From assembly GCA_035533075.1 (NCBI GenBank), contig DATLUO010000182.1, positions 1 to 35,247 of the forward strand: 35,247 nt of DNA, read 5' to 3'. Made by a program: the position numbers and the translations under genes. The notes beneath the pieces are model-generated. The model saw only the letters and a list, made by a program, of their open reading frames with translations, did not search any database and was not told the origin of the DNA. This DNA is from Pirellulales bacterium. GTDB taxonomy: Bacteria; Planctomycetota; Planctomycetia; Pirellulales; JAICIG01. Position 1 is the first letter of the stretch, and every line of letters begins with the position of its first letter. This document shows positions 540 to 31,290 of this stretch, piece after piece.

Positions 540-565
540 CACTTTGGCCGCGCGCGGCCAAAGTG
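540..565. repeat. Perfect 26-bp palindrome
   Basis: Positions 540-552 are the exact reverse complement of 553-565, centred on GCGCGCGC. The outer part (CACTTTGG...CCAAAGTG) matches the start of the hairpin in the 33-bp repeats at 13385-13549, so both may belong to one dispersed hairpin family. It lies about 100 bp beyond the stop of the DUF1501 gene, but no T-run follows in the direction of that gene. Confidence 0.85.
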
Positions 566-601: not shown

Positions 602-617
602 GCGACACGCGTGTCGC
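602..617. repeat. GCGACACG-type palindrome, copy 1
   Basis: The sequence GCGACACGCGTGTCGC is a perfect 16-bp palindrome. Related palindromes occur at 13006-13027, 29051-29066 and 30786-30801. All copies sit in intergenic or decayed sequence. Confidence 0.8.
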
Positions 618-661
618 ATGGGCACGGAGTAGACGGCTTTCCTCTCGCTCCAGCGAAAGGG

Positions 662-2119
662 CTACGCGAACAGGCCCGAAACGACGCTCCCCTTCACCAG
701 CTCGCGAGGCTGATTGAGATGGTTGTAGACGATCGTGTCGGGATTGATGCCGCAAGCGTGGTAGATCGTGGCCAATATGTCGGTCGGATGCACCGGGCTG
801 TCGACCGGCGCCGATCCGGTGGCGTCGGACTTGCCATACACAAAGCCGCGCTTGAGGCCGGCGCCGGCCATCACCGCCGTGTAGCAGTATGGCCAGTGGT
901 CGCGTCCGTCGTCGGTGTTGGAGTTGCCCGACGTGCTCACGCCGCGCTTCGGACTACGGCCAAACTCGCCAATGGCAATCACCAGCGTCTCGTTCAGCAA
1001 GCCGCGATCGTCGAGATCGGCCAGCAAGGCCGACACTCCGGCGTCGAGCAGCGGCGCCGATTGGTTCTTCATGCGGGTCGAGAGACCGGCGTGAACGTCC
1101 CAGGAGTGGTTGTCGCTGTTGGCAACCTTCGGCCAGTTGATTTCGACGAACCGCGTGCCCGCTTCGATCAATCGCCGGGCCAGCAAGCAGCTTTGCCCGA
1201 ACGTGTTGTTGCCGTAAGCCTCCTTGGTGGCCGGCGTCTCCTTGCCGAGATCGAAGGCGTCACGCGCCTTGCCCGAAATGATCAGCGACAAAGCCTTGTC
1301 GTAGTATTCGTCGAGATCGTACTTGGCGGTCGCCTTCTCAACCGCCGGCATCCCCTCTTTGATCACCTCGCGCAGCTTGGCCCGCCGCTCCAGCCGGGTG
1401 GCGGTCAGTTCAGGACGCAACTGCAAGTCGTCGACCTTGATCCGCGACATCTTGGCCATGTCCATGTCGTCGCCGGCCGGATAGAGATAATAGGGGTCGT
1501 AGGCGCGGCCCAAAAAGCCGGCCGTGCCCGCCTTGCCCACCACGTTGCTCTCTTGCGTCGGCCGCGGCATCATCACGAACGGCAGCATCGGCACCGTCGT
1601 CGGCTTCAGCCGGACGATATTGCTGCCGAGGTTCGGATAGTCTTTCGGGCTGGGCGGCTCAAGCTGGCCCGACGGGCTCACCTTGTCGGCGGTGTAACCG
1701 GTGAGAAGCTGATAGTAAGCGGCCGTGTGATTGAAGAGTCCGATCGGCGTGTAGCTCACGGAGCGGAGCAGGGTCAGCCGGTCGGTGACGGAGGCCAGCT
1801 TGGGCAACAGCTCGGTGACTTCCATGCCCGACACCTTCGTGCCGATCGGGTTGAAGATGCTCTTCACATTGTCGGGCACGTTGGGCTTGGGATCCCACAG
1901 ATCGAGATGGCTGGGTCCGCCTTGCAGGAAGATAAAGATCACGCTCTTGGCTTTGTTCCAGCCCGGCCCGCCGACGCCGACTTCTTTGGCCTCGGCCTTG
2001 AGCCGAAACAAATCGGCCAGCGAAAGTCCCAAGGCGGCCGACCCACCCACGCGCAGCAACTCGCGTCGCGTCACGCCGTCACAGGTGTCTTTGCCTGTTC
2101 TGCCGGGGATTATCAACAT
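662..2119 (-). CDS. DUF1501 domain-containing protein with Tat signal
   Basis: This is a 485-residue protein of the DUF1501 family (sulfatase/alkaline-phosphatase-like fold), abundant in planctomycetes and usually exported. The N-terminus has a twin-arginine motif ([10 protein letters not shown], arginines about 18-19) followed by a hydrophobic stretch, so Tat export is likely. The family hallmark [13 protein letters not shown] follows at about 65-77, and the C-terminal part has [10 protein letters not shown] and [16 protein letters not shown] chose the ATG at 2119 because the further 19 upstream residues are proline-rich and unlike the family. DUF1501 genes often sit beside DUF1549/DUF1553 cytochrome genes, but none is visible here. 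The precise substrate is unknown. Confidence 0.92.
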
Positions 2120-5283: not shown

Positions 5284-8024
5284 GACGCCGGGCTTCGCCC
5301 AACCGACAAACCGCCGGTGTTTCGCTGTTTCCCTTCCTGGCGGTGCTGCTCTGCACGATGGGCGCGCTCATCGTGGTGTTGGTCGTCATTGCGCGCCAAG
5401 CCCAGGTGCAGGTGGCCGACGCCGCCCGGCAGGCAGCCGCGGCAACCGTCAACAGCGAATTGAAAACCACGAGCGATGAGTTGGAGTGGCGCATTGCGGA
5501 GATGAAACGGTCTCGCAAGGAAACACAAAAGATCATCAACGAAAAGCAGCTCGAGCTCAGCCACATTGAAGAGCACACTCGTCGGCTGCGAGACCAACTC
5601 GAAGAGCTGGAGAACGCGCGAGCGCACTTCAGCGAGCTGGCCGCCGGTGATGCCCGTGAAAACGAGGACCTGAAAAAACGCCTCCTGCAATTGCGGTTCG
5701 AAGCGGGTCAGACGAAGGCCGAGATCGATAAGCTTCGCCGCGGCTCGGGCGGCAACGGGCAGTCGTATGCGATCATCCCGTATCACGGCTCCAGTGAAAC
5801 CCGCCGCCGGCCGCTGTACATCGAATGCCGCAAAGACGAAATTGTCTTGCAGCCCGAAGGAATCGTGCTTACCGAAAACGACTTCACGGTCGACCTGGGT
5901 CCCAGCAATCCGCTGGTGGCGGCCTTGCGCGCGGCGAAGGACCACCACATTCGCAACCAGCTTGCGGGCAAAGGCGAGGCCGGCACGCCCTATCCGTTGT
6001 TCATCGTTCGGCCCGACGGGATCATGATGTGGTACGTGGGACGGATGGCCATTGCATCCTGGGGATCCGATTTCGGCTACGAACTGGTGGGGCAAGACTG
6101 GGCATTCGAGTTTCCGCCGGTCGAACCGATGCTCAAACTGTCCATGAACCAGGCGGTGGAAGAGGGACGGATTCGACAACAGTACTTGGCAAGCGCCGCA
6201 CCGGCCTTGTCGCACGCGGGCGGTGGGACATTCCGGGTGTCGTCTCACGGCGGCCTGGTGCCGGCCGATGGTTCACCGGCGGGCCGTTCGGGCGGTCGCC
6301 GTGGCCGCGGGCGGCCTGCGGGGCTGCCGGGGCGACGGTCCGGCGGAGGTTCGCAAGTCGGTGGGTCGCCAACGGGCGGTGGCGGACTGCTCAACTCGCC
6401 TTCCGACGGCACGGGACCCGTGCATAGCATCGATGGCGACGACAATCCCTACATCACCGCGATGGGAACGGGACGGCAGCGGGGCGGCAGCGGCACACAG
6501 GCCTCGGCGGGAGGTGCGGGAGGTGCGGGTTTTGGATCGACGCCGGGCAGCGGAGGGACGGGCAGTGGTGCCTTGCCCGGTGGTCTGGCCGGCGGACCGG
6601 GCAACCCTTGGACCGGTGGCCCGTACGCCAACCGTGGTCCGGGCGGCAGCGGCTGGCGAGGCGGCGGCAACGCCGGAGGTTCGGCGTTCGGCGATCCGAC
6701 GGCCTCCGCGCTCGGCAACGGCGGAGCCGGTCGACCTGGCATGCCCGGCGGCACGGGCATGTCCCCGTCGGGAAATCGCTTGGCGACGGGAGGCGGCCCA
6801 GGAGCGGGTACATCGGCCAACCAATTGGCGATGGGCGGCGGAACCGGTCAAGGAATCTACCCGGCCGGCACGACGGGCATGTTGCCCGGTGGCGGCGGAG
6901 GGCCAGGCAACGCGCGAACCGGAAATCGTTATGGTGGCCCCGCCGGGCTCCAGCCTGGCGGGCAGCCTGGCAACGGTTTGCCAAACGGTCAATCCAATGC
7001 GGCAGCCCTGGGCGGCCCGCAACCGGGAAAAACAGGCAACACGGCCACCGGCACAGCCGCTCGCGGCCAGCGCGGCGCAGCGGCGCCTGGCTCCGCAACC
7101 GGCAACACGGGCCCCGGCTCGTCGGACTTGACCGACGCAAAGGCCGGCTCCAACACGTCGTCGGGCGGACCCAACGTCGCGGCCAGCCCCAACGGGATTG
7201 CCGGAGCCACCGTGGTCGAAAACGGCGCGTCGAGCGGCCGCGGTACGGCGGCGACCAACCGCTTGGCCGGCACCGCCGGAGAGGCGACCTCCGGCTCGCT
7301 GACCGGTGCGGACGCCGGTGGCCCGTCGGGAACGTCGAGTGGCGGCGGCGCCGGGAATGCGGGCAGCCCCAGCCGGGCCGGGTCTGCGAACCGCCTGGCC
7401 AGTGGCGCCCCCGGCTCTTCGCAAAATGCGTCGTTGGCCAATGTGAATAAGTTGATGTCGCAGAATTCGTCGAGCGGTTCGTCGTCGAGCAGCTCGTCGG
7501 CGGGTCAACAATCGCCGTTTGGAGGCAGCGCCGGTTCGTCCGCCTCGTCTCCGCAGATGATGGGCGGCATGCCGTCGCCCAGCCTCAATATGGGTCAGCA
7601 GCAAGCGGAAGACCAAAAGCAACAGCGCCGTCACCGCCAGCGCGAAAAGAACTGGGCCAATCCCGACGCCAGCACCACGAACGTGCCGATCGAGCGGCCG
7701 ATTCGCGTGGTCTGCGACGCCGAGCACCTGACGTTGCTGCCCGAAGGACGCGGCAAGCAAGGCATGCGCGTGATTCCCTTCAAGCCGCGGACGGCCGAAT
7801 CGGTCGACGACCTGGTCGGCGCCGTCTGGGACCGCATCGACTCCTGGGGCACGGCGGGGCGCAACATGTATTGGCGGCCCACCTTACTGATGGAGGTCGA
7901 GCCCGGCGGGCAGCGCCGCTACGCCGAGCTGCAATCGTTGTTGGCCGACAGCGGCTTTGACGTACACGGCAAACCACGCCGCAGAATCGTGGGCGACCGC
8001 CGCTTGGGGCGCGCTGGAAAATAG
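5280..8024 (+). CDS. Single-pass membrane protein with Gly-rich linker, ExbD/MotB-like position
   Basis: This is a 914-residue protein with one N-terminal membrane helix (about 14-38), a coiled coil (about 45-155), a globular domain (about 163-285), a glycine/serine/asparagine-rich low-complexity stretch (about 313-780) and a second globular domain (about 810-905). The two globular parts look homologous: RPLYIECRKDEIVLQPEG is matched by RPIRVVCDAEHLTLLPEG, each followed by a segment ending in a GY/GF-x-V/L turn. The topology and coupling (ATGA overlap with the channel gene) suit an ExbD/TolR/MotB-like partner. However, the membrane helix SLFPFLAVLLCTMGALIVVL contains no Asp, the residue that carries protons in that family. 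The linker could span the periplasm. Function unknown. Confidence 0.82.
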   Translation: MRRRASPNRQTAGVSLFPFLAVLLCTMGALIVVLVVIARQAQVQVADAARQAAAATVNSELKTTSDELEWRIAEMKRSRKETQKIINEKQLELSHIEEHTRRLRDQLEELENARAHFSELAAGDARENEDLKKRLLQLRFEAGQTKAEIDKLRRGSGGNGQSYAIIPYHGSSETRRRPLYIECRKDEIVLQPEGIVLTENDFTVDLGPSNPLVAALRAAKDHHIRNQLAGKGEAGTPYPLFIVRPDGIMMWYVGRMAIASWGSDFGYELVGQDWAFEFPPVEPMLKLSMNQAVEEGRIRQQYLASAAPALSHAGGGTFRVSSHGGLVPADGSPAGRSGGRRGRGRPAGLPGRRSGGGSQVGGSPTGGGGLLNSPSDGTGPVHSIDGDDNPYITAMGTGRQRGGSGTQASAGGAGGAGFGSTPGSGGTGSGALPGGLAGGPGNPWTGGPYANRGPGGSGWRGGGNAGGSAFGDPTASALGNGGAGRPGMPGGTGMSPSGNRLATGGGPGAGTSANQLAMGGGTGQGIYPAGTTGMLPGGGGGPGNARTGNRYGGPAGLQPGGQPGNGLPNGQSNAAALGGPQPGKTGNTATGTAARGQRGAAAPGSATGNTGPGSSDLTDAKAGSNTSSGGPNVAASPNGIAGATVVENGASSGRGTAATNRLAGTAGEATSGSLTGADAGGPSGTSSGGGAGNAGSPSRAGSANRLASGAPGSSQNASLANVNKLMSQNSSSGSSSSSSSAGQQSPFGGSAGSSASSPQMMGGMPSPSLNMGQQQAEDQKQQRRHRQREKNWANPDASTTNVPIERPIRVVCDAEHLTLLPEGRGKQGMRVIPFKPRTAESVDDLVGAVWDRIDSWGTAGRNMYWRPTLLMEVEPGGQRRYAELQSLLADSGFDVHGKPRRRIVGDRRLGRAGK

Positions 8025-8065
8025 TGGTTAGCGGCTAGTGGTTAGTGGTAAGTGGTTAGTAGTTA
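8024..8065 (+). repeat. Degenerate heptamer array GTGGTTA, six units
   Basis: Beginning at the last base of the preceding stop codon, six 7-bp units run in register (GTGGTTA, GCGGCTA, GTGGTTA, GTGGTAA, GTGGTTA, GTAGTTA). It is followed 41 bp later by the cleaner CCCTGAA heptamer array. It is noncoding. Confidence 0.8.
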
Positions 8066-8106
8066 GCGATGAGGGATGGGGGACGAGGATTCGCAATCGC
8101 CCTGAC

Positions 8107-8189
8107 CCCTGAACCCTGAACCCTGAACCCTGAACCCTGAACCCTGAACCCTGAACCCTGAACCCTGAACCCTGAACCCTGAACCCTGA
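8107..8189 (+). repeat. CCCTGAA tandem heptamer array, almost twelve units
   Basis: Eleven exact copies of CCCTGAA (8107-8183) plus CCCTGA form an uninterrupted microsatellite. It ends 3 bp before the start codon of the next gene in the operon, and so occupies the place of its Shine-Dalgarno site. Copy-number change by slippage is likely. Because it lies outside coding sequence, it would change spacing rather than reading frame. Confidence 0.95.
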
Positions 8190-10786: not shown

Positions 10787-12376
10787 TCAAAACCGCCACG
10801 TCCATTGCGAGTAGTAAAAGTCGGCGTTGCCGCTGACGCCGGCGGGGTCCGTGTTTTTGACGAAGCTGCCGGCGAAGAAATGCGAGTAACCGAAGAGCAC
10901 ATCGGCCCGCGGATTGACGACGATTTGAAACAGTAAGTCCAATTCCTGCCCGACGTAGGTGCCGGCGGTGCCGTTCGGCGAAATGCGAATGGGCGTGCCC
11001 GTGGCGTTGTATAGGGCGTCGCGTGCCTGGGCCAGGTGAAAGATGTGATACCAAAGTAGGAAGTTCGTTTTTTCGGACGGCGAGAGCGCCGCCTGCAGGT
11101 TCAGGTCGCGAATGTTCTGACGCCCGACGAGATCCATAAATCCGAAATAGCGGTGCCCCCAAGGGAACAACTGGTTGAACGTGCCATGGCGACTGTTGCC
11201 GGGGTTGGCGTCGCCCGAGGCCCAGTCGTAATAGAGCCACAGCCGCGGCTTCGTTCGCGCTTGGGCATATTCATAACCGACGCCCGAAACCGTCATGCCG
11301 GCCGATTGCAGTTGGGTGCCGTAACGGCCGAATTGATAGGCGCCCTGGAATTCCCAGAGCAGATTGTCGCGGCGGCCCTGCCAGCGCGAGCCGATGGTTT
11401 GAAAGTCCGCGTTGACCGGCAACGCCGCGGAGATCGGCGCGTCGTAGACGTTCAGGCCCAGGTAATAAAAGTCAAAGGTCTGCTTGATGCGCGTGCCGCG
11501 TCGGGGAGTCTCCGCCTCCTCCGCAACCTCTTCGGGTTCGGGGGACGGATTGTAGGTGCTCCACACGCCGTAGAAGTCTTCGGTGAGGTCGATCCGGCCG
11601 GAAGCGACTTGGTTTGTCGGCAACGTGCCGAAGGCGACCGGGCGGAGCCAAAAGCCGTCGATGTTCCACTTGTTTCCGCGCCAAAAGAGCTTGGCCCCGT
11701 CGAAGGTGCGCAGCACGTTGTTCCATTCGGCCGGCGAAATGAGCCGTTCGTTTCCGTAGGCCAGTTCCTGCCGGCCGACGCGCCCCCAGAGCTCGCCGCG
11801 CTCGGCGTCAAGCAGCCGCAGGTCGGCGAACAGGTTTAGCGCCTCGATGCCGTTGTCTTCGCTGGCCAGCGGCGTGTGCCTTTGAAAGGACGTGGCCGAG
11901 TCGAGCGCCTCTCCATAGAGCCGCACGGCTTCGTCCAGCTTCAGGTTGCCGTACAGCCGCGTGCGCTGGAGCAAGAAGTCGTCGCTCCGGCCGGAGAGAT
12001 TGCGGCCGCGCAGGTTGAACTCGTGATGATCTCGCAAGCGGTATTCGCCGCCCAGGTCGAGCATGCCGCGGCCTCGACGGCCGACACGCCACTGCTTGAA
12101 AACGTCGCCCAGGTAAAACTCGCGGTTCGCCGGGGCATTCAGGTACGTGAAGTCGTTGTCGTAATAAAGACGTTTATAAGCTTCCATCGCCGGCCGCGTT
12201 TCTTCCGGCGTGAGACGTTCCGGCGTCTCCGCCTCCTCCTGGATCTCTTCGGGCTCGCCCGGCACCGCGGAGGGGCTTTCCCTCGGCGCGGGCTGCTGCG
12301 CCCGCGCGGGACGGCAGAACGGGGCGACGTCGGCCGCCAAGGCGACGATGGTGGCGGCAATGACAAGCTGTCGCAT
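10787..12376 (-). CDS. Alginate-export-type outer-membrane beta-barrel protein
   Basis: This 529-residue precursor has a signal peptide (about 1-26, cleavage probably after ARA-QQ) and a low-complexity Pro/Glu-rich segment (about 27-60). A predicted barrel of alternating amphipathic strands follows and ends in an aromatic residue (WTWRF), as outer-membrane proteins do. The segment with ELWGRVGRQELAYGNERLIS and NNVLRTFDGAKLFWRG matches the alginate export (AlgE-like) family. Members are passive channels for polysaccharides or other solutes; in planctomycetes the substrate is unknown. The leader contains a hairpin that includes the likely ribosome-binding region, described separately. The gene is monocistronic as far as visible. 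Confidence 0.85.
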   Translation of the reverse strand: MRQLVIAATIVALAADVAPFCRPARAQQPAPRESPSAVPGEPEEIQEEAETPERLTPEETRPAMEAYKRLYYDNDFTYLNAPANREFYLGDVFKQWRVGRRGRGMLDLGGEYRLRDHHEFNLRGRNLSGRSDDFLLQRTRLYGNLKLDEAVRLYGEALDSATSFQRHTPLASEDNGIEALNLFADLRLLDAERGELWGRVGRQELAYGNERLISPAEWNNVLRTFDGAKLFWRGNKWNIDGFWLRPVAFGTLPTNQVASGRIDLTEDFYGVWSTYNPSPEPEEVAEEAETPRRGTRIKQTFDFYYLGLNVYDAPISAALPVNADFQTIGSRWQGRRDNLLWEFQGAYQFGRYGTQLQSAGMTVSGVGYEYAQARTKPRLWLYYDWASGDANPGNSRHGTFNQLFPWGHRYFGFMDLVGRQNIRDLNLQAALSPSEKTNFLLWYHIFHLAQARDALYNATGTPIRISPNGTAGTYVGQELDLLFQIVVNPRADVLFGYSHFFAGSFVKNTDPAGVSGNADFYYSQWTWRF

Positions 12377-12440
12377 AATAAACCCCGCCGTGTGCGGGGT
12401 TTAGCGCAAACCCCTACCACAGCGAAAAACCGCGGTAGGA
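12377..12440 (-). promoter_or_regulatory. Leader hairpin overlapping the ribosome-binding region
   Basis: On the minus strand AAACCCCGC and GCGGGGTTT form a perfect 9-bp stem with a 5-nt loop (12380-12402), ending 3 nt before the ATG at 12376. The GCGGGG part of the 3' arm is the only purine-rich, SD-like sequence. Just upstream, CCTACC and GGTAGG (about 12413-12440) can pair too. The leader could hide the ribosome-binding site and control translation of the barrel gene; this is inference. Confidence 0.45.
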
Positions 12441-13005
12441 GTCATCAGCCCGATCACGGGGCGGTTTCGTGGGGGACTCCATCCCCGTAGCTGGTTGCTC
12501 TCTTTGCCATCATCGGCTCGCTCGGCACAACCGCTACAGTCTTTCACAAAGCGTCGGCATGCGCCGCCGGCCTGAACCTCTTGTCTACGATCCTGGTCCG
12601 GCGAAAGCGGCTCACCATTTGCGGCTCGCGAAGTGGGAGCGACGGATGTCCTTCGAAAAGCGACACAAAGAGGTTCTGGTCAGCAGCTTCGCGAGTTTGC
12701 ACGATTGTCCTTCTCCGCTCAGCCGCGCCAGCCGCGTAGCGGCATGGCCGGCGTCGAGCAGCAGGTCGGTCGCCAGGGCGTTGATCCGCTCGGCCAACCC
12801 CGCCGCGTGGGCGCGGCGGCCATCGCGGCCACTGCGCCGGCGAGCTTGCGCAAGCGGCGCGCGGCGACGAACGACAACCGGCGACGCGCCGCCGGCTCGT
12901 CCGCCGACCCGGCGTTCGTACCGGCGACGGCGGGCGCGCCCGCCGCGGCGGACGGCCCCGTAAACACCACGCCGCGGAGGGCGCGCAAGAGCGCCGTCTG
13001 CGACC

Positions 13006-13027
13006 GATGCGACACGCGCGTCGCATC
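13006..13027. repeat. GCGACACG-type palindrome, copy 2
   Basis: GATGCGAC and GTCGCATC are 8-bp arms around ACGCGC, matching the palindromes at 602-617, 29051-29066 and 30786-30801. It sits inside the decayed DUF3102-like gene, where it encodes DATRVSHRS. Confidence 0.65.
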
Positions 13028-13384
13028 GATGGCGCTGGCCGGCAAGTGCCGCGCGACGCGCATATAGCGCTGCGCCGTGCGGACCGAGCCCTCGAAATTG
13101 GTCCGCAACCAGCGGAGCCAGCCCCCTTGTTCGCACAGATCGCGCGCCTGGGCGAGCGCGTGCCCGGCCGCCACGAGGTGCGCCATCGCGGCGCCGGCCG
13201 CCGCCACCGCCCAGCGGTGGCTGCGGTTGGCGGATTTCGCCAGCAGCGCCAGCGTGTTTCGCCGTTCGTCGGCCATCTGCGTCCAGGCGCAGGGCCTCGC
13301 GGACGAACGGCCCCGAGGCCCGCCACACGGGACCGGTCCGCCTGCGCTTGCGGCCCGCACTTGCGCCGCGTGCGGCCGGACCGA

Positions 13385-13549
13385 CGACGGCACTTTGGCT
13401 GCGCGCAGCCGAACTGGCGACGGCACTTTGGCCGCGCGCGGCCGAACTGGCGACGGCACTTTGGCCGCGCGCGGCCGAACTGGCGACGGCACTTTGGCTG
13501 CGCGCAGCCGAACTGGCGACGGCACTTTGGCAGCGTGCTGCCGAACTGG
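13385..13549 (-). repeat. Five 33-bp tandem repeats with covarying hairpins
   Basis: Five exact-length 33-bp units start at 13385, 13418, 13451, 13484 and 13517. Each reads CGACGGCACTTTGG, a palindromic core, then CCGAACTGG. The cores differ but keep pairing: GGCTGCGCGCAGCC (units 1 and 4), GGCCGCGCGCGGCC (2 and 3) and GGCAGCGTGCTGCC (5). The paired changes look like compensatory substitutions. The unit length is divisible by three, so all frames stay open across the array. The core and its CACTTTGG flank match the palindrome at 540-565. Confidence 0.93.
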
Positions 13550-13892
13550 CTGCGTCCGGGTTCCGTTCGTCCGCATGCACAATCGCCGCAAGTGCTTTCA
13601 GGGCCTGCCGTTGCGACGAAAATCCCGCGGGGTGCTGCGCGGTCAGCCGCGGCCAATTGCGGGCGAGCTGCATGTAGGTGCGCGCGGTCCGCGGCGAGAG
13701 CCGCTGGTCTTCGTCCTGCTGGAAGTGCATGCGGAACGCCTTGCGCGCGGTTGTCGTCCGAAACTTCAAGATCGAGCCTTTCGTGGTGGCCGTTCAGGCG
13801 CGCGACGGTATCGCTCAGCCGGTTGCTGGGCAGCGCCAGGCCGTTCCGGCAAAACGTACCCGTCCTACCCGCCCCTTTTCACGGCCCGTGGC

Positions 13893-16748
13893 TTACTCCC
13901 AGTCTTTTGTCTTAAAACCAAGGCTGGTGGCATTTTCGGTCACGGCACGCTTGATCTGGTCGCTGGCGCCGGCAGGAAATTCGGCGCTGATCTCCACGGT
14001 AATGCTGAGTGAGGCGCTGGCATCGCTCGCGAGAACGCTGATGATCTCCTCGGCAACTTGAAGCATTCGCATCTTAGCGGTCGCAGGATTGATCTCGACG
14101 GCGCCATGAAACATCTTGGCCTTGGCCGCGGCCGGGCCGCCCGCGTTTGCGGCGCCGGTTCCTGACGTCGCTCCAATTGGCGTCTCGCCTCGCGCCGGGG
14201 TCTCGGTACTTGATGCTCCACCCAGCGTTGCACTGCCGCCTCCGGCACTCGCGCCCGTAGCGCCGCCAATTCCGGCCTTCATGACGCTGGTTTCATATTG
14301 CCTCGCGGCTTCCGGCTCGATCAATAGCAAGGTGTCGTCGAACTGGACGCTGCCCTCGCCGAACTGAAAGCCTTCATACATGTCGCTGGTCTGACCGTAG
14401 GCGATGCCAAAAAAATCCTTGGAGGCTGCGCCCGCGCGGATGGCTTGCGAAAGCGAGTCGCGGTTCTTGAGTCTCGGCAAGTACAAGTACCGCAGCGTGT
14501 CTTCCCAAAAGGCCGTGGCGCCGGCCGCCGTCTTGCCCTCTTTCCAATACAGCTCTTTCAGCTTCGTCCGTAGGTGAATCGGCGACCAGGTTGTAATCAC
14601 CAGCTCATTATCGGTGCAGACGCGTTCGATCTCGTTGCCCATCGAGCCGCCGGTGCTTGTCAGTGGAAACGCCTCGACCACCGGCTTCGGCTCGGTCGGC
14701 GTGTTCTGAGACGGGCAAAGCAGCCACTTGTAGCATTCGCGCGCCACGCGCGGCACCACCTCCGCGGCGCTTTGCAGCTCTTTCTCCGCCTGCTTTCTCT
14801 GCAGTTGATCGATGACCAGGCGATCTTCTTTCACGTCGTCGACGATCGAGCTCCAGGCCAGCGCCACCCGCGCGGCGTCGCGAAGCCGGGCCAGCACCGC
14901 CATGTCGGGGGCGAGAAACAGCAGCCGATTGCCTCGGTATCGGGGTTTCGTGCCGTTGTTGCGCCAATAATCCAGCACCGCATTGGCGGCCTGCCGCTCC
15001 TCGTCGCGCGAATACCAGTGCTCCGGCGAAAGGACGACCAGCCGCAGCGCGCTGTCGTCGGGCACGTCGCCGTGCGGAGTAAAAACGTGAACGCCGTCGA
15101 AAAATGTGGCGCTGCCGACCAGCCTCTTGAGCGCCTCGGCGATTTTGCCCCGGACGTCGGTTCCGTCGTCAAAACGCCGCTTGCGGTCTTCCATTTCGCG
15201 GCGCAGGTTGGCGCGCGTGTCGAACCAAAAGCGCGTCGCCCCTTGCGCCTTGTCGCCGGAACTGTTGAGATAATGCAGGCGGTCCGCCAGCCGGTTCAAA
15301 GCGTCGGAATAGATGGCTGACGTTTGGCCCGGCTGCAGGCAACCCAAGAGTACCCGCGCCCGGTCCAACCCTCGAATGCCCGACTTCCCGGCTACGGAGG
15401 AGGGGGCGCTGCCCAAAAACAGCGTGCGGGCCACGCGGCGCGCGGCGTTCACTTGCCCGAAGCGGGGCTCGCGGTTCTCCAGCTCCGTCGTCTCCGCGCG
15501 GTCGCCGTCGATGTCCTTTTCGACTACGGCATCCCAGCCCGCCGGCAGGTAGTACGTCAGCTCGTTTCGCGAGCTGCCGTCGTCGAGCGGCAGGCTGCCG
15601 GGCAGAATCATCAGGTCCTTGTTGTCGTCTTTCCACAGCCGGCCGATGACCTTGGCCATGAGCTTCAGCACGCCGCGCGTGCGCTGAAAACCGTCGATCG
15701 TGGTCCAATCTTCATACAGCCGATCGAACACCTCGGGATGAATGGGGTAGGCTTGCGCCAGCCGGTCGTAATAGCGGCCTTCTTGCGTCTCGGCCGGCAG
15801 CTTGGCGCCTTCGGCCACGTAGGCGTCGGCAAACGCGCGGCAAACCGCGTCGCGCGCCTGGCCGTCGCGCACCGGTTCGAACAGCCGCCGCCGCACGATT
15901 TCGAACGCCTCTTCGGTGGCCACCGGCTTCCACAGGGCCTGAATGCGGCCAAAGGTCTTTTCGAGCGCTCGCAATGCGGCCACACCGCGCTGGCCGCCCG
16001 CCTCGTCGTCGGACTCGGGCAGCGACGCCAAGACAATGGCATTTGGCACCAGCTTGACCGCTTCGGTTAGCGCCTGCGCGAACGACAGGTTGCTTTCGTA
16101 ACTGCCGCCGCTGAGCGCCTGGCCTTCGGCGAATTGCCGCACGTAAGCCACCAACTCGTCGATCAGCACCACGCAGGGCGCATATTGGGCGAGCAGCTCG
16201 CGCAGCACGTCTTTGCCCGGCGATGTGCCGGTGGCGTCGGACTCCTTGACCAGTGCCAGCGCCTCGCCGCCGCCAAGCTGCCAGGCCAGCTCGCCCCATA
16301 GCGTCTTGATGGTCTGCTTGCCGTGTTTCCAGGCTTGGCCCGGCGCGTGGGCCGTTCCGTCGAGCACGGCCACTCGCGCCTGCGGCACGTCCATCATGCC
16401 GGCCTGGTCGACAATCGCCGGAATGCCGGCCAGCTCGGAGAGAGCGCATTTCCGCGTGGCCAGATGGTAGACGGCCAGCATGGTATGCGTCTTGCCGCCG
16501 CCGAAGGCCGTTTGAAGTTGGATCACCGGCTCGCCGCCTTGGCCGATCAGGCGCTGAGCGACCTGCGTCAAGAGCAGCCGCATGCCCTCGGTGATGAAGG
16601 TGCGATCGAAGAACGCGGCGGCGTCCTGATATTCCTGGGCGGCCTTGCCCGCATGCACCGCCGTAATATCCGCGGCAAACTCCGACTGCTGAAAAGTTCC
16701 CTCCAGCACGTCTCGGTGCGGCACCGCAATCTCTCGCCAGGGTTTCAT
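13893..16748 (-). CDS. DUF499 AAA-type ATPase, defence-associated
   Basis: This 951-residue protein opens with [17 protein letters not shown], typical of DUF499 proteins. It has a Walker A motif in [15 protein letters not shown] (residues about 83-87) and a Walker B motif [10 protein letters not shown] (about 193-201). The C-terminal third has a Gly/Ala/Ser/Thr-rich linker (about 790-845) and then a small domain of about 100 residues ([17 protein letters not shown]...) as in other family members. DUF499 ATPases accompany DUF1156 methyltransferases and helicases in predicted anti-phage systems; the biochemical role is unknown. The start ATG overlaps the stop of the small nuclease-like gene upstream (ATGA). 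It is the last intact gene of the seven-gene operon. Confidence 0.9.
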
Positions 16749-17341
16749 GGTCGTGGAGTTCCTATTTGTGTGACTACCCACGCGACTTGGCCCATACTGC
16801 TCATATCGAGAACAAGCGGTCGCGGGTCGATGGACTTGATGAGTTGTTTTAGCCGCTGCAAGACATTCGCCTTTCGCGAAGCCGCAGATTCGAGCGGCGA
16901 TTTTGGTGGAGGTTGTTCCAGGTGCAGGACGACCCTTAGGCGGTTGCAGTGTAAAGCTGCTTGTGCCAACTGTCTCTCTCCCGCGTCATTGGCGCTGATT
17001 GCGGCGACCACCAGACACGCCAGCGTGTCGCGGACCTTCAGCGCGACTTCATCCGCAAGAAAGGCGAAATTGGACACCCTGGTTTGCCGGTAGTCTTTGA
17101 TTTCGATTTGCCAGCAGATTGAACCCGGCTCGATCGCCAAAACATCGATCCCCTTTGTGCCCGCGACGTTTTTGTTGCCGCAATTCGCACAACGGATGCC
17201 GTCCTCGCATTTCGAACAATTCATACTGGCCCCAGCGAGTTTCATAAACTGATTGCGGTAGAAACTCCACTCATCGAACTTGGACGCCTGCCAATCGCTC
17301 GGAAACTCGAACCGCAGTTGCCCTTCGCTGATCGTCGGCAT
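16745..17341 (-). CDS. Small zinc-ribbon protein with PD-(D/E)XK-like nuclease motif
   Basis: I do not recognise the family of this 198-residue protein. Four cysteines in a CxxC-x5-CxxC arrangement (C42, C45, C51, C54) suggest a zinc ribbon. Just after it, [10 protein letters not shown] (D66) and WQIEIKDYR (E80, K82) reproduce the D...ExK core of PD-(D/E)XK nucleases, with hydrophobic strands around each. The C-terminal half ends in an amphipathic region. It may be a nuclease effector or a catalytically altered relative. Its ATG (17341) overlaps the stop of the AAA gene upstream (TGATG), and its stop overlaps the DUF499 start (ATGA). That coupling implies matched production of the three proteins. 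Confidence 0.8.
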
Positions 17342-18396
17342 CACTCCGTCTCGACTTTCAGATATCGGTCCGATTGGCTGAGCTCCTCGGTCAAAGCGTC
17401 GATCGAGCCGATGTCGTCGATCGTGTCGCCTTGGGTCGCCTCAACGCCTTCCTCACCGCGGTGCAATCCAATGAAGCGCGTCTTAACCGCCTTAAACTCG
17501 TCGCGCTGCAAAAGAATGTCGAGCTCGCGCAGCAAAAACAGGCTGTGGCTCGCAAGGAACACCTGAATGCCGCTTTGGCAAAGGCTCAGAATCGTGCGGG
17601 CGATCATCTTGATCGCTTTCGGGTTCAAGTTCGATTCGGGCTCGTCCCAAAACAAGAACCCCTTATCGACCAGCGAGCCGGTGGCGATCAGCCGCGCCAG
17701 CATGGCCAGCTTCCTCAACCCCTCGGCGACCAGGTGCATCTCCGTGCTGACGCCCGCGACATTCAAATAGAAGCGGCCGGCCTTGTCGAGCTCGACCTTG
17801 CCGCCCATCGCTTCCTCAAGTGGAACCAGCAATTCCCGAATGCGCTTCTCCCGCGGACCCCGGGCCAAGGGCGCGCCGAGCAAAATGCACGTGTCGCGCC
17901 AGGTTTCCTCGAAGGACAGATGCGTTGTCTCATAAAGCGAGACGAAGCCGGGGTAGATCGTCAACAGCTCGCGTGTCGGCAGGTAAACCGGCAGTTTATC
18001 GGGCCATGCCGAAGGGGTCTTGTCGATGGTGACTTCCGACTTGCTGGTGGTGTTGAACGAGAATGCCAACGGAGGCTTGTTGGGGGAAAACAGGCAGCTC
18101 ACTTCGCATCGCTGCCGCCCTGGGCTTGCGCGGCGCGCCAGCCGCCCCAACTCGTCCGGCCGGAAAACGGCGTTGAGCTTGTCGGCGATGGCGGTCTGCA
18201 AATACGCCTTCGTTGGCGTCCCCGGACCTTGTTCCTTTTTCCTCGTCGCGCCGGCATAGAGGGCCGAGTACGCCACCTTCAGGATGTGCGTTTTGCCCGT
18301 CGAGTTTTCGCCCACGATCACGTTGAGGTTCGACGCGAAGCTCAATCGTGCTTCAGTGAAAGCGGTGAAATTCTTCAGCGAAAGTGATTTAAGCAT
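17341..18396 (-). CDS. SMC/OLD-like AAA ATPase without nuclease domain
   Basis: This 351-residue ABC-type ATPase of the RecF/OLD class has N-terminal MLKSLSLKNFTAF, Walker A GENSTGKT (29-36), a signature-like AEGLRK (about 224-229), Walker B FLFWDEPESNL (about 247-257) and the histidine switch ASHS (about 282-285). It is too short for the TOPRIM nuclease found in OLD and GajA proteins; a small PD-(D/E)XK-like protein follows in TGATG coupling instead. I infer an ATPase-nuclease pair in which the enzyme activity is on a separate chain. The start lies 29 nt after the methyltransferase stop, with only a weak GGAA upstream. Its role in DNA or nucleotide sensing is inferred from its relatives. Confidence 0.87.
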   Translation of the reverse strand: MLKSLSLKNFTAFTEARLSFASNLNVIVGENSTGKTHILKVAYSALYAGATRKKEQGPGTPTKAYLQTAIADKLNAVFRPDELGRLARRASPGRQRCEVSCLFSPNKPPLAFSFNTTSKSEVTIDKTPSAWPDKLPVYLPTRELLTIYPGFVSLYETTHLSFEETWRDTCILLGAPLARGPREKRIRELLVPLEEAMGGKVELDKAGRFYLNVAGVSTEMHLVAEGLRKLAMLARLIATGSLVDKGFLFWDEPESNLNPKAIKMIARTILSLCQSGIQVFLASHSLFLLRELDILLQRDEFKAVKTRFIGLHRGEEGVEATQGDTIDDIGSIDALTEELSQSDRYLKVETE

Positions 18397-18425
18397 GCAA
18401 TCGTTCCGGTTTAGGCGTCCTGACT

Positions 18426-21335
18426 CTATTCAAACAGGCCGCGTTGGGCGGCGGGGGGTTGTTTGGCGGCGGCGGTTTCGATGCCGGTCCAAGAGGTGAT
18501 CAGCTCGTTGTAGGCCCGCGCGTCTTCCGCCCGGCCGGCCCGCTCGCTGAGCGTGTACAGCCGGTAGGCAAGCTGCCGAGCACTTTCGGCCTTGTGCGCC
18601 ACGGCCGCGAACACCGATCCCGCGCCCGTGTCGCCCGTCGAGTTGAAGACTCGGATGAGCTGGTGCAGCACCTCCCAGACGGGCAAACGCTCGTCGGCCT
18701 GCGGATCCCAGTCGGTGGGATACTCGGCCCACTTGAGCAACCGGGCCTGTCCGCCCGCGGAGCGCAGCACGCCCGACTGTTTGACGCCTTCGACGCTGGT
18801 TCCCTTGGCGCGGGCCAGCACGTCGGCTTCGCCGAACTGGCCGTTCTCCCAGCCATGCTGCTCGAACCAGCGCAAGCAGAACTGCGTATCGGCGTCGAAA
18901 TCGTCGTCGGCCAAAAAGCGGTTGATGAGCTGCAATGCCGTGCGGACCGTCATCGGCGTGCCATCGGCTTCCAGCACCGCCGAGTATTTGGAGAACACCG
19001 CCATGCCCGGCCCGATGATGGCTTGCGAGAGATCGACCGGAGCGACGGGGGAATGGAGCCCTTCGCTTTCGCGGGTCATGCTATCCAAGGCCAGAGGCAA
19101 AGCCGCGTTGAGCTCGCGAATGAATTCGCGACGAGAAACCATTGGTGCATCCAGATGTTTTGGACGGCACACGAGAACGATCGACGACGCCAAGGCATTC
19201 GTTCCGGAACCGACCATTCGATTGCCGAGCTCAGTGCGCATGGGCCATGTGCCCGTTAGGGACAGGCCGGCGCGGTAGACGGCTTCGAGAAAGGTCACCC
19301 AACCTGTGCTCGACGTTCCATCCTTCGATTCTGTCTCCGATTGCTTGAACGCGTAGTAAATAGTTAGTGGCGCGGAGGGGTGTGCGCTAACCGCGAGCCG
19401 ATGCATAACCTGTGTCATGCCGTCGAGAAAGAACTTCTCGGCCTTTTCTTTTGTTCCGTGTCGATAAGGGGTGGCGACCAATTCTTCGACTTTGGGGACC
19501 GCGATCGTTGCCAAGATGTCTGGAAAGACTGCGCGAAGTGAGCGTCGTAGCCAGACATAAAAGAAATCAGAGAGGTCGGCGTACCCAATGTTGTCGTAGT
19601 AAGGCGGATCTGTGGAGCAAAAGCGGTTGTTGCCTATGCCTTGCGATTGCGCGAGCCCTTGGATCGCCGTGCCACTAGCCGCCGCCGCGATTGCGCAGTT
19701 TTCAATGCTCTCCGCCGTCCAGTCAATTGCGCCGCAAAAGCTGCCGGTCCCGCCGAGTAGCACATTTAATTCGGCGAAGTCCCACGTCATCGGCAGCGCT
19801 TGCCTGCCGAATGTATTCCGCGTAGAGTCTCTCTCGGTGAACCAAGTGCATAAGCTTGAGCCCCTGTCAGCCAACTTATTTAGCCCAAAGGCCAAGTACA
19901 CGCTCACCGCTTCGGCGTATGCTCTGGCCCCGGTGCCGCAGGCATCGACCCCGCGATCGTCATCGTGCATCCCGGCGGCGAGGGCGTCGGCTCGGATGTG
20001 CGCCCGCGCGTCCGCAACCAGGTCACTGAACGTCGTCAGGGCCACCAACTGCCGCGGCGTGAAGAGATCGGCGAATGTTGTCATGCCGTAGTTGGGCGTT
20101 TTGAAGTCGCGCGGGTTGTCGGGCAGTTTCGCTTCGGGCGCCCACACTGGTATCGCCTTCGCCGCGAGACGCTCGTGCTGATCGGTTGGCGCAAGGTAGA
20201 CCCGTCTGCGCATTCCCTCAGCGACAATCGCCATCAGCTTCTGGCGCATACGCCCCGCCTGGCCTTCGGTGCGGATGTAACCATATTCCATCGGAACATT
20301 CGACATCAAACAGCGAAATGCTTGTCGCTTGCCCGCAGTCGTTCCACCTTTCGCCTCGGCGGTCGGCTTGCCGACTTTCACAGTGAAGCGGTATCCGCTC
20401 TTCCCGATCACGGGTTCGACGTAGGCTTCCTTGCCCGGCTTGCTGCTCAAGATAAACGTGCTGGCGAGCGGCACGTCGACGTGCGAAAACGCCGGGTTGG
20501 GACTCTTCACAGTCCGCGCCCAGAGCCAGGCGATGACGGTCAGCTTGTCGCCTTCATAGGGCTTCAGGTCGGGCCGCTCTTGGACCATTTCCGGCGTGAT
20601 CTCGATCGGCGGATACAAGTGGCCGATTCGCTTGAATGCTTCATCGCGCATCCATTTGCCGTAGTAACGCACGTCTTCGGCCAGCCCCTGCGCCCCTTTC
20701 CACTCGCGCCTCAGTAGCGAGCTCTCTTGACGCGCGGCGCGGTTGACCGGCGGCCGGCCGGCGAACTTGGGTGGGATCTCGATCATGGCCTTGTTAATCA
20801 ATACGGCCACGGGGTTCAGATCGCTGGCGTAGGCGTCCAGCCCCAACCGCTGCGCCTCCAGCGGTATCGTGCCGCCGCCCGCGAACGGATCGTGCAGGCC
20901 GGGCATCTTGTTGGCATCGAACAGCTCCGCCGCCCGCGGATGATGTTTGTTGAGCTCGCACGTCTCGCGCCAGCTTTGGCGGATCGCCTCACGGGCCTTT
21001 TCCAATACCGTTTCGTTGGTCGTGTTTTCCCACTTCACCAGGTCTTCGATGATGGCGAACAGCCGCGCGCGGGCCTTGGCCCAGTGGCCTTTGACCTGCT
21101 TGTTCGCCTCTTTGCCGGGGTTTTGGCATCGCCAGAGGTCTTCAGGATCGTTGACAAGTTGCGAGAAGATCACCGCCCGCGCCGCCGCCAACGGCCGCCG
21201 CGCCCACCACAGGTGCAGCGTGCTCGGGTGCCCATGCCGGATCGACTTCTCCCGGCTGCACGCCGCGTTGATCGCGTCCAGCGGCAAGGCGACCTCGATG
21301 AGCTTCTTCGGGCAAACGATGGTGTGTTCGTTCAT
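18426..21335 (-). CDS. DUF1156 domain DNA methyltransferase
   Basis: This 969-residue probable N6-adenine or N4-cytosine DNA methyltransferase starts with the DUF1156 signature ([34 protein letters not shown]). The SAM-binding motif [14 protein letters not shown] is at about 148-161 and the catalytic motif DPPYYDN at about 576-582. The roughly 415 residues between them would hold target recognition. It probably marks host DNA for the operon's defence function. The ATG at 21335 gives the usual family N-terminus; an in-frame ATG at 21350 is possible, which would leave only 2 nt after the protease stop. Neither has a clear Shine-Dalgarno site at ideal distance, so translation may depend on coupling to the protease gene. 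Confidence 0.92.
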
Positions 21336-21352
21336 GCGATCGCTAAACATCC

Positions 21353-23929
21353 TTAGCTGCCAAGTGGGTTTCGCGTTCGCACTTCGATGGTCGGCCGAAT
21401 ACGTGCGCGCACTTCCTGATAAACGGGAATCGCGACGCCTTCGGAAACTTCCAGCGAGACGACCAATCCGTAGGGGACTGGATGCGCCAGAGCGCCCGCG
21501 TCGGCACGGCAGTTCACTTTGATCGACAGCGAATCCCCGTCGGAAATGACATGCGCGTCACGCCCTTCAAACACTTCGTGGTGGACGGTCCCTCGTCGTA
21601 CTTCGTGCCATTCAGCGTCCGTTCGGTCGCGCGTAAGTCGCGGTCCTTGCACGTCAAACCAGAGACTGGCTGCGCGATATTTCTGGGTTGTCGGTAAGAC
21701 GGGCGAGAGCCAGGCAACGGTAACCGTCAAGCGCCTCCAGTCTGTGCGAGAACCAAGCGAGGGAGGAAGCGGAAGCTCAAACACGTGAGCCGCGCCGTCG
21801 CCAAGTTCACCAAAGCCAAGGACGGTCGCTCGTTGCTCCGCGCACTGCATCACCCGCTGCGTGTCTGGGACGCCGTATCCTAGCCATTGGCTCTTCCAGT
21901 GCCGTAGCGAGCGACCATCCGTGTGAGGGGATAGCACATCGTGGAGGCGATCTCCGCACATATCCCAAGAGCATCCATGCACGATCATCGCCTTAAGCAG
22001 CGGAGCAATGAATGCGGTCGCGTCGGGAACCTCCTGCTGAGATTCAAGCAGCGTGGCCAGCGAATCGTGACAGCGACCCAAGTGGTGACTAAGCAATGCC
22101 GCCGCATTGCTCGTTCCCGCGGAATGGAACGTTTTCCGGATGTCTCCGGGCAAGCTTCCGGGCGTGGCCGAGCACTGCCCGGGCGCGCTGCGCCGCGGGA
22201 AACAGGAAAGCGTGGTCCCCGTTGGTGAGTAGTTATAAAGAACCCTTCCGCCCGAGAATGTCAGGTCGGGCTTCACGGACCGACGATAGCCGCCGCCAAA
22301 AGCGGAAATGGGGCTTGGCAGCGGTACCGTAAACAGCTCAACGAGTCGTCCGACCGGGTTTGCTCCGGAGCCATCGTGATGGGTTGCGCCCACCGTAATC
22401 GCATTGATCGACTCGGCTGGCGAAAATAAGCGGCGGTTTCTCGCATCTTCGTAAAGTTTTCTGATAGCGAGCGCCTCGCGTTCCGCGTCGCCCAGCGCAC
22501 GGAACTCCGATTCGGAGATACCGAGGTCGAGGTCGTGCGTTTGATTCCCGGCACTCACCACAAACAGCACACCGTACTTGTGGCTTAGCCAGTCAAGAAG
22601 ACGCGCAAGCGAGCTCATCAGTTGGAAGAACGGACGGCTTGGGTCGCCAATGGCCAAATTGATGATTCGAACCGCGGGGGCGACGGCTGGTTGGTTTCCG
22701 TCGCCCTCACAAATCCTGCGCACCGCGCGATGAATCAGGTCAATCACCAGCATGTCGCGGGGCAGCTCCTCGGGCCACGGTTCGTGATGCCAGCTTACCG
22801 GCTTCATGATCGGTCGCACGTACACCGGCCGGGACAAGGCGCGGTTGCCGTCGCTCAAGTCTCCATGAACGACCAACGAACAGATCGACGTGCCGTGAAC
22901 ACGGCGAGCCGCCGGGCAATCCGGAGCGAAGTCGTCTGGGTCGTCGACGATCAGGCGACCGTCAAGCAGTTCGTGCTTTTCCAGGGGGAATCCGTCAAGG
23001 ACCGCGATGACCGGCGCGCCCGAGGGAAGCGGCTTCTCGTCGCGTTCCGGCAAATCTTCCGGATCCCCTTCGATTTCCTGTTTACCCGTCGCCATTTGGC
23101 CCACGGGACGAAAGAACATGATGCTATCGCACTTTACCAGTTCGACGGCCTGGTGATTGATGATTCGCTCAATCTCGCCCTGCGGCAGTTCGGCAAGGAT
23201 GCCGTGGTAGGCGATTTCCTGCAGCACATATCGTCCTGGAACGCTGCCCCCGGACTGCTGAATGAGCTGCGCGACCGCTGCTTCCGCGGCTTCTCGTTGA
23301 GGCAAGTTGCCGCGAAACCAGAGCTCAATCTCCAGCTTCACCGGCTGGTCGGGGCGATCGCGCAGATCTTCTTGCCACGCCTCGATGGCGCCAGTTTCCT
23401 CCAAGCGGTCGCGAATATCCCAGCGTCGAATGTCGTGAAGCAACAGGAACACGTCGCGAAACTTGGTCAGGCCACGCTGCCACGTCATCGACGGATCGCG
23501 CTTATAGTTGTCCCATAGGGAGAGCATCTCGCGCAGGCCCTGCTGATTGCTCATCAGCAAATAGAGCCGGCCGCCGAGTCGCTTGTCCTTGTGCTTCTTG
23601 TCGTAGAAGTCGTCGTCCGGCGCGATTTCATCAATCTCGTTCTCGCCCAACCATTCGAGTCCGTCGATCTTGGCTACCGCCTTGGCAAAATCATCGACGC
23701 TTCCCACGGTTTCGATCACGAGAACCTGTTCGGGATCAATTCCGCTCGGGCTTTGCCGAACTTCAACGGCACGAGCTTCGAATGCTTGCTGAAGCGAATC
23801 AAGTTTTGGGCCAATGCGCTCGCCCTGCCGGCCAACGCTTGGCCGGTGTATGTCAGGGGCGCCGCCGCGCCCTTTGTCACGGTCAGCGGTTTGAGGCCGC
23901 GGGAAAATCAAGAGCGGAAGCTCTGGCAT
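21353..23929 (-). CDS. S8 (subtilisin-like) serine protease, IetS-like
   Basis: This 858-residue protein has a complete subtilase triad: Asp312 in VIAVLDGFP, His345 in [16 protein letters not shown], oxyanion Asn462 in [10 protein letters not shown] and Ser607 in [12 protein letters not shown]. About 300 residues precede the protease domain and about 230 follow. There is no signal peptide, so it acts in the cytoplasm. An AAA+ ATPase gene lies directly upstream and shares one base (TAATG). This ATPase-subtilase pair has the layout of the IetAS system, described as a plasmid stability module and anti-phage defence, in which the protease is the toxic effector. Here it sits inside a larger operon, which is unusual as far as I know. 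An upstream in-frame extension was rejected because it overlaps the ATPase gene. Confidence 0.92.
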
Positions 23930-24954
23930 TAGCCTTCGGCTCCGTTGTTCAGCATCGACGTGACGGTGCGCGCCTTCCACGTCTTCAGGGTTTCAGCGAC
24001 GATCGCTTTGATGTTCGCGTCCGGCTGGCCCAACACGAACTTCCGAAACACCGAGGCGCCGAATTCCTCGGCCTCGGCAAAGTTCACTCCGGAGAGTTTC
24101 TTGGCGAGCGCGTCGGGCGGGTAGCCGAGCGGCTGCTTGACGCGCCGTTCAAAACTCGCAAACCATTCGGCCAATCTGGCCCGCGTCGGCTGCGGCAGTT
24201 CGATTCGCACTTGGAATCGCCGCCACGCCGCGCGATCGAGCAGTTCCGGATGGTTGGTGGCGCCAATGACGACCACGTGGCTTGGCAACGCGTCCACTTG
24301 CATCAGCAGCGAACTGACCACTCGCTTGATCTCGCCTGTTTCGTGGGTGTCGCCGCGCTCCTTACCGAGCGTCTCAAATTCATCGAAGAACAGGACGCAT
24401 CGCCGCGTGCTGGCAAACTCCAGCAGGCGCCGGAGGCGGACGGCGGTTTCGCCCAAATAGGCGCCCACGATGCCGTCGTATCGCACCTGGAGAAGCGGCA
24501 CCATCAACGCCTCGGCCACCGCCTCGGCGAGCGAGGTCTTGCCATTTCCCGGCGGCCCAATAAAAAGCAACCGGTTGCGAGGTTCGAGGTTGTAAGACCG
24601 AAGCAAATCGACGCGGTGGTGTTCGGAGACGACTTCGTTAATCACCGTGACGACGTCCGGGGGCAGAATCAATTCATCCAGCTTCTTCTGGGGAATCAAC
24701 TCCAAGACGAACGCGCTCACGTTCTTATCGAGCAGAGTGCTTCCATTTACCCGATTTGTCCCGGCGTGCGCCACGCCAACCAACTCCTGCAGCTTCTCAG
24801 CAAGCACGGAGTGGTTCTTCGCCCTCTCTTCCGCGATGAGCGCATCGACGACTTTTCTAAACTTTGCGCGATCGCCCGCCATCCCGGTCGCGACAAGGTC
24901 AGTGATTAAGTCAGCTCGCGCCATGGTTTCGTTCTGCTTTCCTTCCGCTGCCAT
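23929..24954 (-). CDS. AAA+ ATPase, IetA-like
   Basis: This 341-residue ATPase has an N-terminal helical region (about 1-95), then a classic AAA+ module. Walker A is GPPGNGKT (133-140), Walker B VLFFDEFE (about 187-194), sensor-1 region VVIGATNHPELLD, and candidate finger arginines in RAAWRRFQ. It resembles FtsH- or spastin-like ATPases more than Clp. Coupled by TAATG to a subtilase, it matches IetA, the partner that controls or unfolds substrates for the protease in IetAS. The start at 24954 lies 21 nt after the helicase stop; ATG 24924 (MARADLITDL) is a credible alternative, and neither has an ideally spaced Shine-Dalgarno site. Confidence 0.88.
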   Translation of the reverse strand: MAAEGKQNETMARADLITDLVATGMAGDRAKFRKVVDALIAEERAKNHSVLAEKLQELVGVAHAGTNRVNGSTLLDKNVSAFVLELIPQKKLDELILPPDVVTVINEVVSEHHRVDLLRSYNLEPRNRLLFIGPPGNGKTSLAEAVAEALMVPLLQVRYDGIVGAYLGETAVRLRRLLEFASTRRCVLFFDEFETLGKERGDTHETGEIKRVVSSLLMQVDALPSHVVVIGATNHPELLDRAAWRRFQVRIELPQPTRARLAEWFASFERRVKQPLGYPPDALAKKLSGVNFAEAEEFGASVFRKFVLGQPDANIKAIVAETLKTWKARTVTSMLNNGAEG

Positions 24955-24975
24955 CCGGTCGCTTGCCCCTGTTCA

Positions 24976-27900: not shown

Positions 27901-28500
27901 AGCATGGTCTTCGAACGGGTTGCCGCTGGGCGACGCCTCTTCCAGCGCCGCCGAGTAAATGCGGAATTCGAGGCCGAATTTCTCGAACAGCTCATCGCGC
28001 CACTGCTCTACGAGGCTGCCCGGCGCCACAATCAAAATGCGTCGCGCGTCGGCCCGCATGATGAGCTCGCGGACATAGAGACCGGCCATGATCGTCTTGC
28101 CGGCGCCAGGGTCGTCGGCCAGGACGAAGCGCAGCGGCTGCTTGGGAAGCATCGACTCGTAGACGGCGGTGATTTGGTGCGGCAGGGGCTCGACGTTCGA
28201 CGTATGCACCGCCATCATCGGATCGAAAAGAAACGCCAGGTCGATGCGTTTGGCTTCGCACGTGAGCTGGAACGCGGCGCCGTCGCCGTCGAACGACCAC
28301 GGGCGCTCGACGGTGGCCACGCGGATGTCATTTTCGTCGCCGCGGCCGAGCAAGCGTTCTTTCGTGGCGCCGTCGGGAGTGCGGTAGAAGACCTGAATTG
28401 CGCCGTCGCCAATCGGCACGACGGCGGCCACCGTTGCCACCGCCGACGGCTCCAGACCGACCAGCGGCAAACCAGGTTTGAGATCTTCGAGTTTCGTCAT
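24976..28500 (-). CDS. SNF2-like helicase with C-terminal DUF3883-type domain
   Basis: This 1174-residue protein is a DNA translocase or helicase of superfamily 2. Motifs in order are [13 protein letters not shown] (Walker A, about 132-136), FDEAHKLA (motif II, about 229-236), LLMTATPH (motif III), [15 protein letters not shown] (motif V) and [11 protein letters not shown] (motif VI, about 590-600). An acidic insertion ([16 protein letters not shown]) lies between the lobes. The C-terminal 100 residues (GWDL...[20 protein letters not shown]) resemble DUF3883, a PD-(D/E)XK-like domain with D and ExK in place. It is related to the large helicases of class 1 DISARM and helicase-methylase-ATPase systems. 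It is the first gene of the operon. I chose ATG 28500; a TTG at 28542 in frame is possible. Confidence 0.93.
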
Positions 28501-28560
28501 TGGTCGGTCGTGGTCCCGTGCGTTTTTCGCTTTTGGCGCCAATGCCTTGCCTGCGCTGCC

Positions 28561-31165: not shown

Positions 31166-31290
31166 AATCGTTTGCCTCGACCGTTGGCGCAGCGCACTGC
31201 GCGGCTGAAATCGTTTGCCTCGACCGTTGGCGCAGCGCGCTGCGCGGCTGGAATCGTTTGCCTCGACCGTTGGCGCAGCGCGCTGCGCTC
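31166..31290 (+). repeat. Three 43-bp tandem repeats with palindromic core
   Basis: Units start at 31166, 31209 and 31252 with AATCGTTTGCCTCGACCGTT. Each contains the core GGCGCAGCGC(A/G)CTGCGC, which folds into a hairpin. The third unit is cut short at about 31290. The array interrupts the Rpn-like fragment. The unit differs from the 33-bp repeats at 13385-13549, but the design (fixed flank plus GC palindrome) is the same. Confidence 0.9.

Follow-up and report, generated by a model that had tools for sequence, protein, structure and literature searches.

We describe a REP-like palindromic repeat that has been tandemly expanded within a decayed gene and whose cores have probably been homogenised by block copying of core haplotypes, a reading to which we give a probability of roughly two in three. 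The array in question lies in a window, that is, the whole stretch of 35,247 nucleotides that was analysed, and, though new, is of a fairly ordinary kind: as in known REP repeats, the arms probably stay matched mainly through the copying of whole palindrome cores between places. What it contributes is an intragenic, tandemly expanded REP-like palindrome, found in a REP-rich genome whose gene content (DUF1501) looks planctomycete-like. More generally, what looks like stem covariation within one genome can come from the copying of a few core haplotypes, which is a reason for care before a functional structure, RNA or DNA, is read from it.

Five exact 33-bp units of the form GACGGCACTTTGGC-core-GCCGAACTGGC start at 13386, 13419, 13452, 13485 and 13518, and TRF returned a period of 33 with a score of 297. 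A preliminary description had reported five units with three named cores, which is borne out over 13386-13550, CTGCGCGCAG and CCGCGCGCGG occurring twice each and CAGCGTGCTG once. Together with a degenerate sixth unit, they are arranged as follows:

13353..13385, forward strand: degenerate sixth unit, core CCGCGTGCGG, arm CACTTGCG
13386..13418, forward strand: 33-bp unit 1, core CTGCGCGCAG (T-A)
13419..13451, forward strand: 33-bp unit 2, core CCGCGCGCGG (C-G)
13452..13484, forward strand: 33-bp unit 3, core CCGCGCGCGG (C-G)
13485..13517, forward strand: 33-bp unit 4, core CTGCGCGCAG (T-A)
13518..13550, forward strand: 33-bp unit 5, core CAGCGTGCTG (A-T, centre GT unpaired), adjoining unique flank

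Covariation in the window amounts to a single base pair with three states, C-G, T-A and A-T. The paired core changes described earlier are real but are confined to this pair, columns 10 and 17 of a 26-mer. CAGCGTGCTG had been counted among the cores that keep pairing; it is an imperfect palindrome, its centre GT being an unpaired change. The fixed flanks CACTTTGG...CCGAACTG are mispaired at two positions. A CRISPR-like array was ruled out, as the units have no variable spacers, and the repeats matched no Rfam RNA family.

The array core had also been likened to a palindrome at 540-565. This palindrome is perfect over 26 bp, as stated, but it belongs to a ~132-bp mosaic unit and not to a 33-bp unit. 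The unit, which spans 540-665, contains:

540..565, no strand assigned: palindrome CACTTTGGCCGCGCGCGGCCAAAGTG, perfect over 26 bp and terminal in a mosaic element that consists of one ~132-bp unit
603..616, no strand assigned: palindrome CGACACGCGTGTCG, part of the same unit
641..665, reverse strand: GTAG-REP-like hairpin GTAGCCCTTTCGCTGGAGCGAGAGG, part of the same unit

About 100 bp separate the palindrome at 540-565 from a DUF1501 gene, whose 3' end faces it. Units of ~132 bp run head to tail, each combining the palindrome, CGACACGCGTGTCG and a GTAG-tagged hairpin; their arrays usually end in a common non-palindromic flank (AGCAGGAT...), and several contigs start or stop near them. With clustered palindromes, a GTAG-like REP hairpin among them, and conserved spacers, the unit resembles a BIME, from which it departs in that REP orientation does not alternate. 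A MITE-like element, whose ends are TAAAGCTTCGCCGAACCCG/CGGGTTCGGCGAAGCTTTA and whose interior carries AACCCGAAGCGCAAGCGAGG repeats, occupies about 320-470 of the window and is also present at loci L035, L046 and L048; its insertion site is the same in the window and in contig C183 and different in C32.

Genome-wide counts were obtained by pattern searches of the 8.54 Mb genome (296 contigs), with the loci fetched and scanned. The pattern CACTTTGGCNGCGNGCNGCC gave 92 strand-wise matches and a reversed control pattern gave 0, so the palindrome is not a product of chance. The family retained comprises 81 copies in 31 loci of this one genome, and scanning found consensus-matching outer arms in 31 copies of the 26-bp palindrome. 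Columns 10 and 17, which the copy filter left free, are complementary in 73 of the 81 copies, against a mean of 30.4 and a maximum of 50 when right arms were shuffled (10,000 trials); with one copy drawn per locus, 28.3 of 31 are complementary against 11.8 expected. About 10% of cores are unpaired at this position. The inner stem, GGC-N-GC...GC-N-GCC, is very G+C-rich and invariant apart from N, three of its columns having been fixed by the copy filter.

Among the 28 copies in 33-bp units, pairing fails in 27 at 3/24 and in 26 at 6/21, given here as raw counts because the shuffled expectation at these pairs is inflated by mixed strand orientation. Pair counting over the 18 distinct 33-bp units found one pair that changes on both sides (7 cells, a value reached in 0/500 shuffles), with unit pairs 5/26 and 8/23 unpaired in 17 and 16 of the 18 rows, respectively. 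Copies outside the 33-bp class have an excess of pairing at 6/21 (47/53) and 7/20 (52/53), which would fit some constraint on a perfect palindrome. The refutation proposed in the preliminary description, that unpaired substitutions be as frequent as paired ones, is thus answered differently by position: unpaired states are rare at 10/17 and common at 3/24 and 6/21.

Block copying is indicated by the base composition of the core centre. The centre is non-GC (AC or GT, one state read on opposite strands) in 13 of 16 A-T copies and in 3 of 57 C-G or T-A copies (Fisher p = 3e-9). Because the centre cannot pair, pairing leaves this linkage unexplained, and the unpaired central base serves as a built-in marker that separates block copying from compensatory mutation. 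Columns 10, 13 and 17 switch together between units with near-identical spacers. Mapped onto a tree built from the ~106-bp spacers, the state of the core requires 18 changes, compared with a mean of 16.4 for shuffled labels (no linkage), although the resolution of the tree is weak (1 starred branch) and the missing core-spacer linkage therefore partly reflects low signal. The linkage of A-T to an unpaired AC, together with the distribution of core type off the spacer tree, indicates that cores move as blocks. C-G and T-A cores have a GC centre and no linked marker, and these states may have arisen by independent paired substitution or template switching.

Further traces of exchange are found among the unpaired cores, CAGCACGCGG, CTGCGCGCTG and CCGCGCGCTG, which are mosaics of common cores and look like recombinants. 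Contig C196, in which 2/5 units among those listed have unpaired cores, holds a recombined array with some broken cores. At the sister loci window 540 and C183, the flanks are 97% and 99% identical and the palindromes differ only at 10/17, a difference that would fit either whole-core replacement or a single template-switch event.

A history consistent with these comparisons would begin with the tandem duplication of one palindrome-bearing 33-bp unit at the window locus, which would keep the reading frame because 33 = 3 x 11. A few core haplotypes (C-G, T-A, and A-T with central AC) would have spread among loci and units as blocks, by unequal crossing-over and conversion between near-identical arms, and the two arms would appear to covary as a result. 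We infer that ordinary recombination accounts for the block transfer and that no haplotype had more than a few origins, which may lie in hairpin-templated (template-switch) correction; this order of events is deduced from sequence. The comparison covers one genome of the species, in which no between-strain transfer event was caught. Selection on structure is not needed for the paired core changes, since the outer stem of the 33-bp units is nearly always broken and unpaired cores occur in C196. Where the preliminary description offered selection or gene-conversion-like copying on structure, it is the copying that gains support, from the A-T/AC linkage and the spacer tree.

Quasipalindrome template switching would copy a mutation in one arm to the other arm during replication, giving a paired change in one event without selection. 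It is an established mechanism and a proposed origin of compensatory stem changes (PMC8794818). The very G+C-rich inner stem is in its favour, as are the closest sister loci, window 540 and C183, which differ by one complete pair, and adjacent C196 units, which go from T-A to A-T with spacers that are 2/92 different. However, it does not predict that an unpaired centre base travels with A-T, and the outer mismatches of the 33-bp units at 3/24 and 6/21 have been left uncorrected. Template switching often produces loop inversion, whereas the aligned ~132-bp A-T units nearly all have centre AC, with one GT (C5), and so display little of it. On balance we consider this explanation unlikely. It is similarly improbable that a DNA-level process of hairpin-templated or arm-to-arm correction, outrunning flank drift, keeps the arms complementary in this genome; were that true, the arrays would record a correction process without selection on its product.

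Rather more doubtful is selection for a hairpin or cruciform (an RNA stem, a protein-binding palindrome or the REP substrate of a RAYT-type transposase), under which only compensated changes survive. The pairing excess at 10/17 would be expected, as would the otherwise unvaried inner stem (three columns of which were required by the copy filter), and the palindrome at 540-565, taken as DNA, folds well (z -3.7). For REP stems, changes of a complementary or compensatory kind have already been published and were interpreted as selection (PMC2817692; PMC3116915). Against this, single 33-bp units fold no better than shuffled sequences (z -0.3 to -0.9), and 27/28 and 26/28 of them are unpaired at 3/24 and 6/21. 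The cores unpaired at 10/17, including those of C196, also argue against it, and in this genome no copy of the palindrome was found closer than 1.5 kb to a RAYT domain.

The host of the 33-bp array is a DUF3102 gene that has one intact copy, on contig C121, and several decayed copies, that of the window among them:

12747..13283, reverse strand: gene 2 remnant (DUF3102), 95% DNA identity to C121, Pfam DUF3102 E 1.4e-6
13551..13739, reverse strand: gene 1 remnant (DUF3102-type, 5'-truncated), for which the array is the in-frame linker AASSAAR[S/G/C]QSAV, by DNA alignment

In C121, gene 1 is intact (267 aa, with two 33-bp units in frame), and the second gene, which comes after it, has DUF3102 and MUG113 domains. 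The gene 1 remnant matches the intact protein at 80% identity across 84 aa (13488-13739), and a deletion at about 13283 has joined the gene 2 remnant to it out of frame. Truncated copies are present on seven further contigs in addition to the window, with 1 to 6 units per gene copy and some frameshifts. Distant paralogues (33-38% identical) align poorly in the linker, where the C121 palindrome is in frame. The truncated copies at L034, L038, L050, L051 and L055 share a 3' extension (TGGTACTTGCCATCGGAACAA...), which suggests that it was this truncated form that multiplied.

Selection on the 11-residue repeat of the DUF3102 protein is largely refuted: 33 bp does keep the frame and the intact C121 gene does encode two units (AASLAARSQSAV / AAPAARGASAG), but in the frame of the gene the left base falls on a silent third position of an Ala codon whereas its right-arm partner changes Gly/Ser/Cys, the palindrome also occurs outside the DUF3102 gene, and in the window gene 1 has lost its 5' end and runs out of frame into gene 2. 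Coding constraint was rejected, and the preliminary description was right that the encoded peptide is not what is maintained.

We call the CACTTTGG palindrome REP-like and not REP, because it has neither a GTAG tag nor a neighbouring RAYT. Its length of 26 bp falls within the ~20-40 bp of REP palindromes, and it is dispersed at high copy number, although the usual REP copy number is >100 and its 81 copies fall below this. The palindrome at 540-565 is near a gene 3' end and the 33-bp arrays are in the gene linker or its remnants. No GTAG tag adjoins the palindrome; the sequence just after it is CGTC only in 33-bp units (GCCAAAGTGCCGTC), and the ~132-bp units carry CGAC. CACTTTGG was not found within about 1.5 kb of the genome's 12 Y1_Tnp matches. 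The genome does have a classic GTAG REP, GTAGCCCGCT[T/C]GCTCCGC[A/G]AGCGG, with 178 copies at up to 2 mismatches, and it forms inverted pairs that flank the RAYT gene of C26, as is expected of REPs and REPINs. Among 100 matches listed, its stem pair is T-A in 81, C-G in 17 and unpaired in 2; this paired two-state stem follows the same pattern as the CACTTTGG palindrome.

GTAG- and CGTC-tagged REP/BIME sequences (Di Nocera 2013, PMC3733652; Nunvar 2010, PMC2817692) are alike in having a 20-40 bp palindrome in tens of dispersed copies, hairpin mosaics, occasional location in ORFs and complementary stem changes. The CACTTTGG palindrome differs from them in lacking a GTAG head and an adjacent RAYT, and in the window it is tandem at 33 bp within a decayed gene, while its neighbouring hairpin in the ~132-bp unit has the GTAG tag. 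REPINs (Bertels & Rainey 2011, PMC3116915) are likewise hairpin repeats of one genome in which compensatory changes are common, and tandem REP arrays have also been described (PMC3116915); no inverted doublet with a RAYT was found for the CACTTTGG palindrome, whereas the genome's GTAG family does fit. Rickettsia palindromic elements and other protein-coding palindromes (cited in PMC3733652, PMC2996958) also occur in frame within genes and elsewhere, but the window repeat is shorter, tandemly expanded and confined to one gene family. PARCEL repeats (PMC2996958) are tandem coding repeats with dyad symmetry; they have 75-nt units that encode amphipathic membrane-protein repeats, in contrast to the 33-nt units, Ala-rich linker and decayed gene of the window array.

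The palindrome is species-specific. Its exact form was absent from all 56 relatives searched and was not found in viral contigs; eight matches in the genome collection were rejected, having unrelated cores and flanks and being about as numerous as expected by chance. In other genomes of the order, sequence resembling the ~132-bp unit is short and, where readable, consists of GTAG-type REP hairpins; the GTAG hairpins of relatives within the order have other compensated stems.

The array lies just downstream of hmaC, in a neighbourhood with several other features. An anti-phage defence island at 13893-28542 (reverse strand) encodes HmaC, HmaB and HmaA (helicase-methylase-ATPase) and has IetA/IetS and a HEC-02-like ATPase embedded in it. 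A fluoride riboswitch (RF01734, 54 bits) at 12429-12495 (reverse strand) is upstream of an alginate-export-family gene at 10787-12376. Other tandem repeats of the window are an almost perfect 7-bp repeat, CCCTGAA, at 8100-8189 (12.9 copies), adjoined by a TAGTGGT repeat at 8022-8066, and a 43-bp repeat at 31166-31288 (2.9 copies, 97% identical), each copy of which contains the near-palindrome GCGCAGCGCGCTGCGC.
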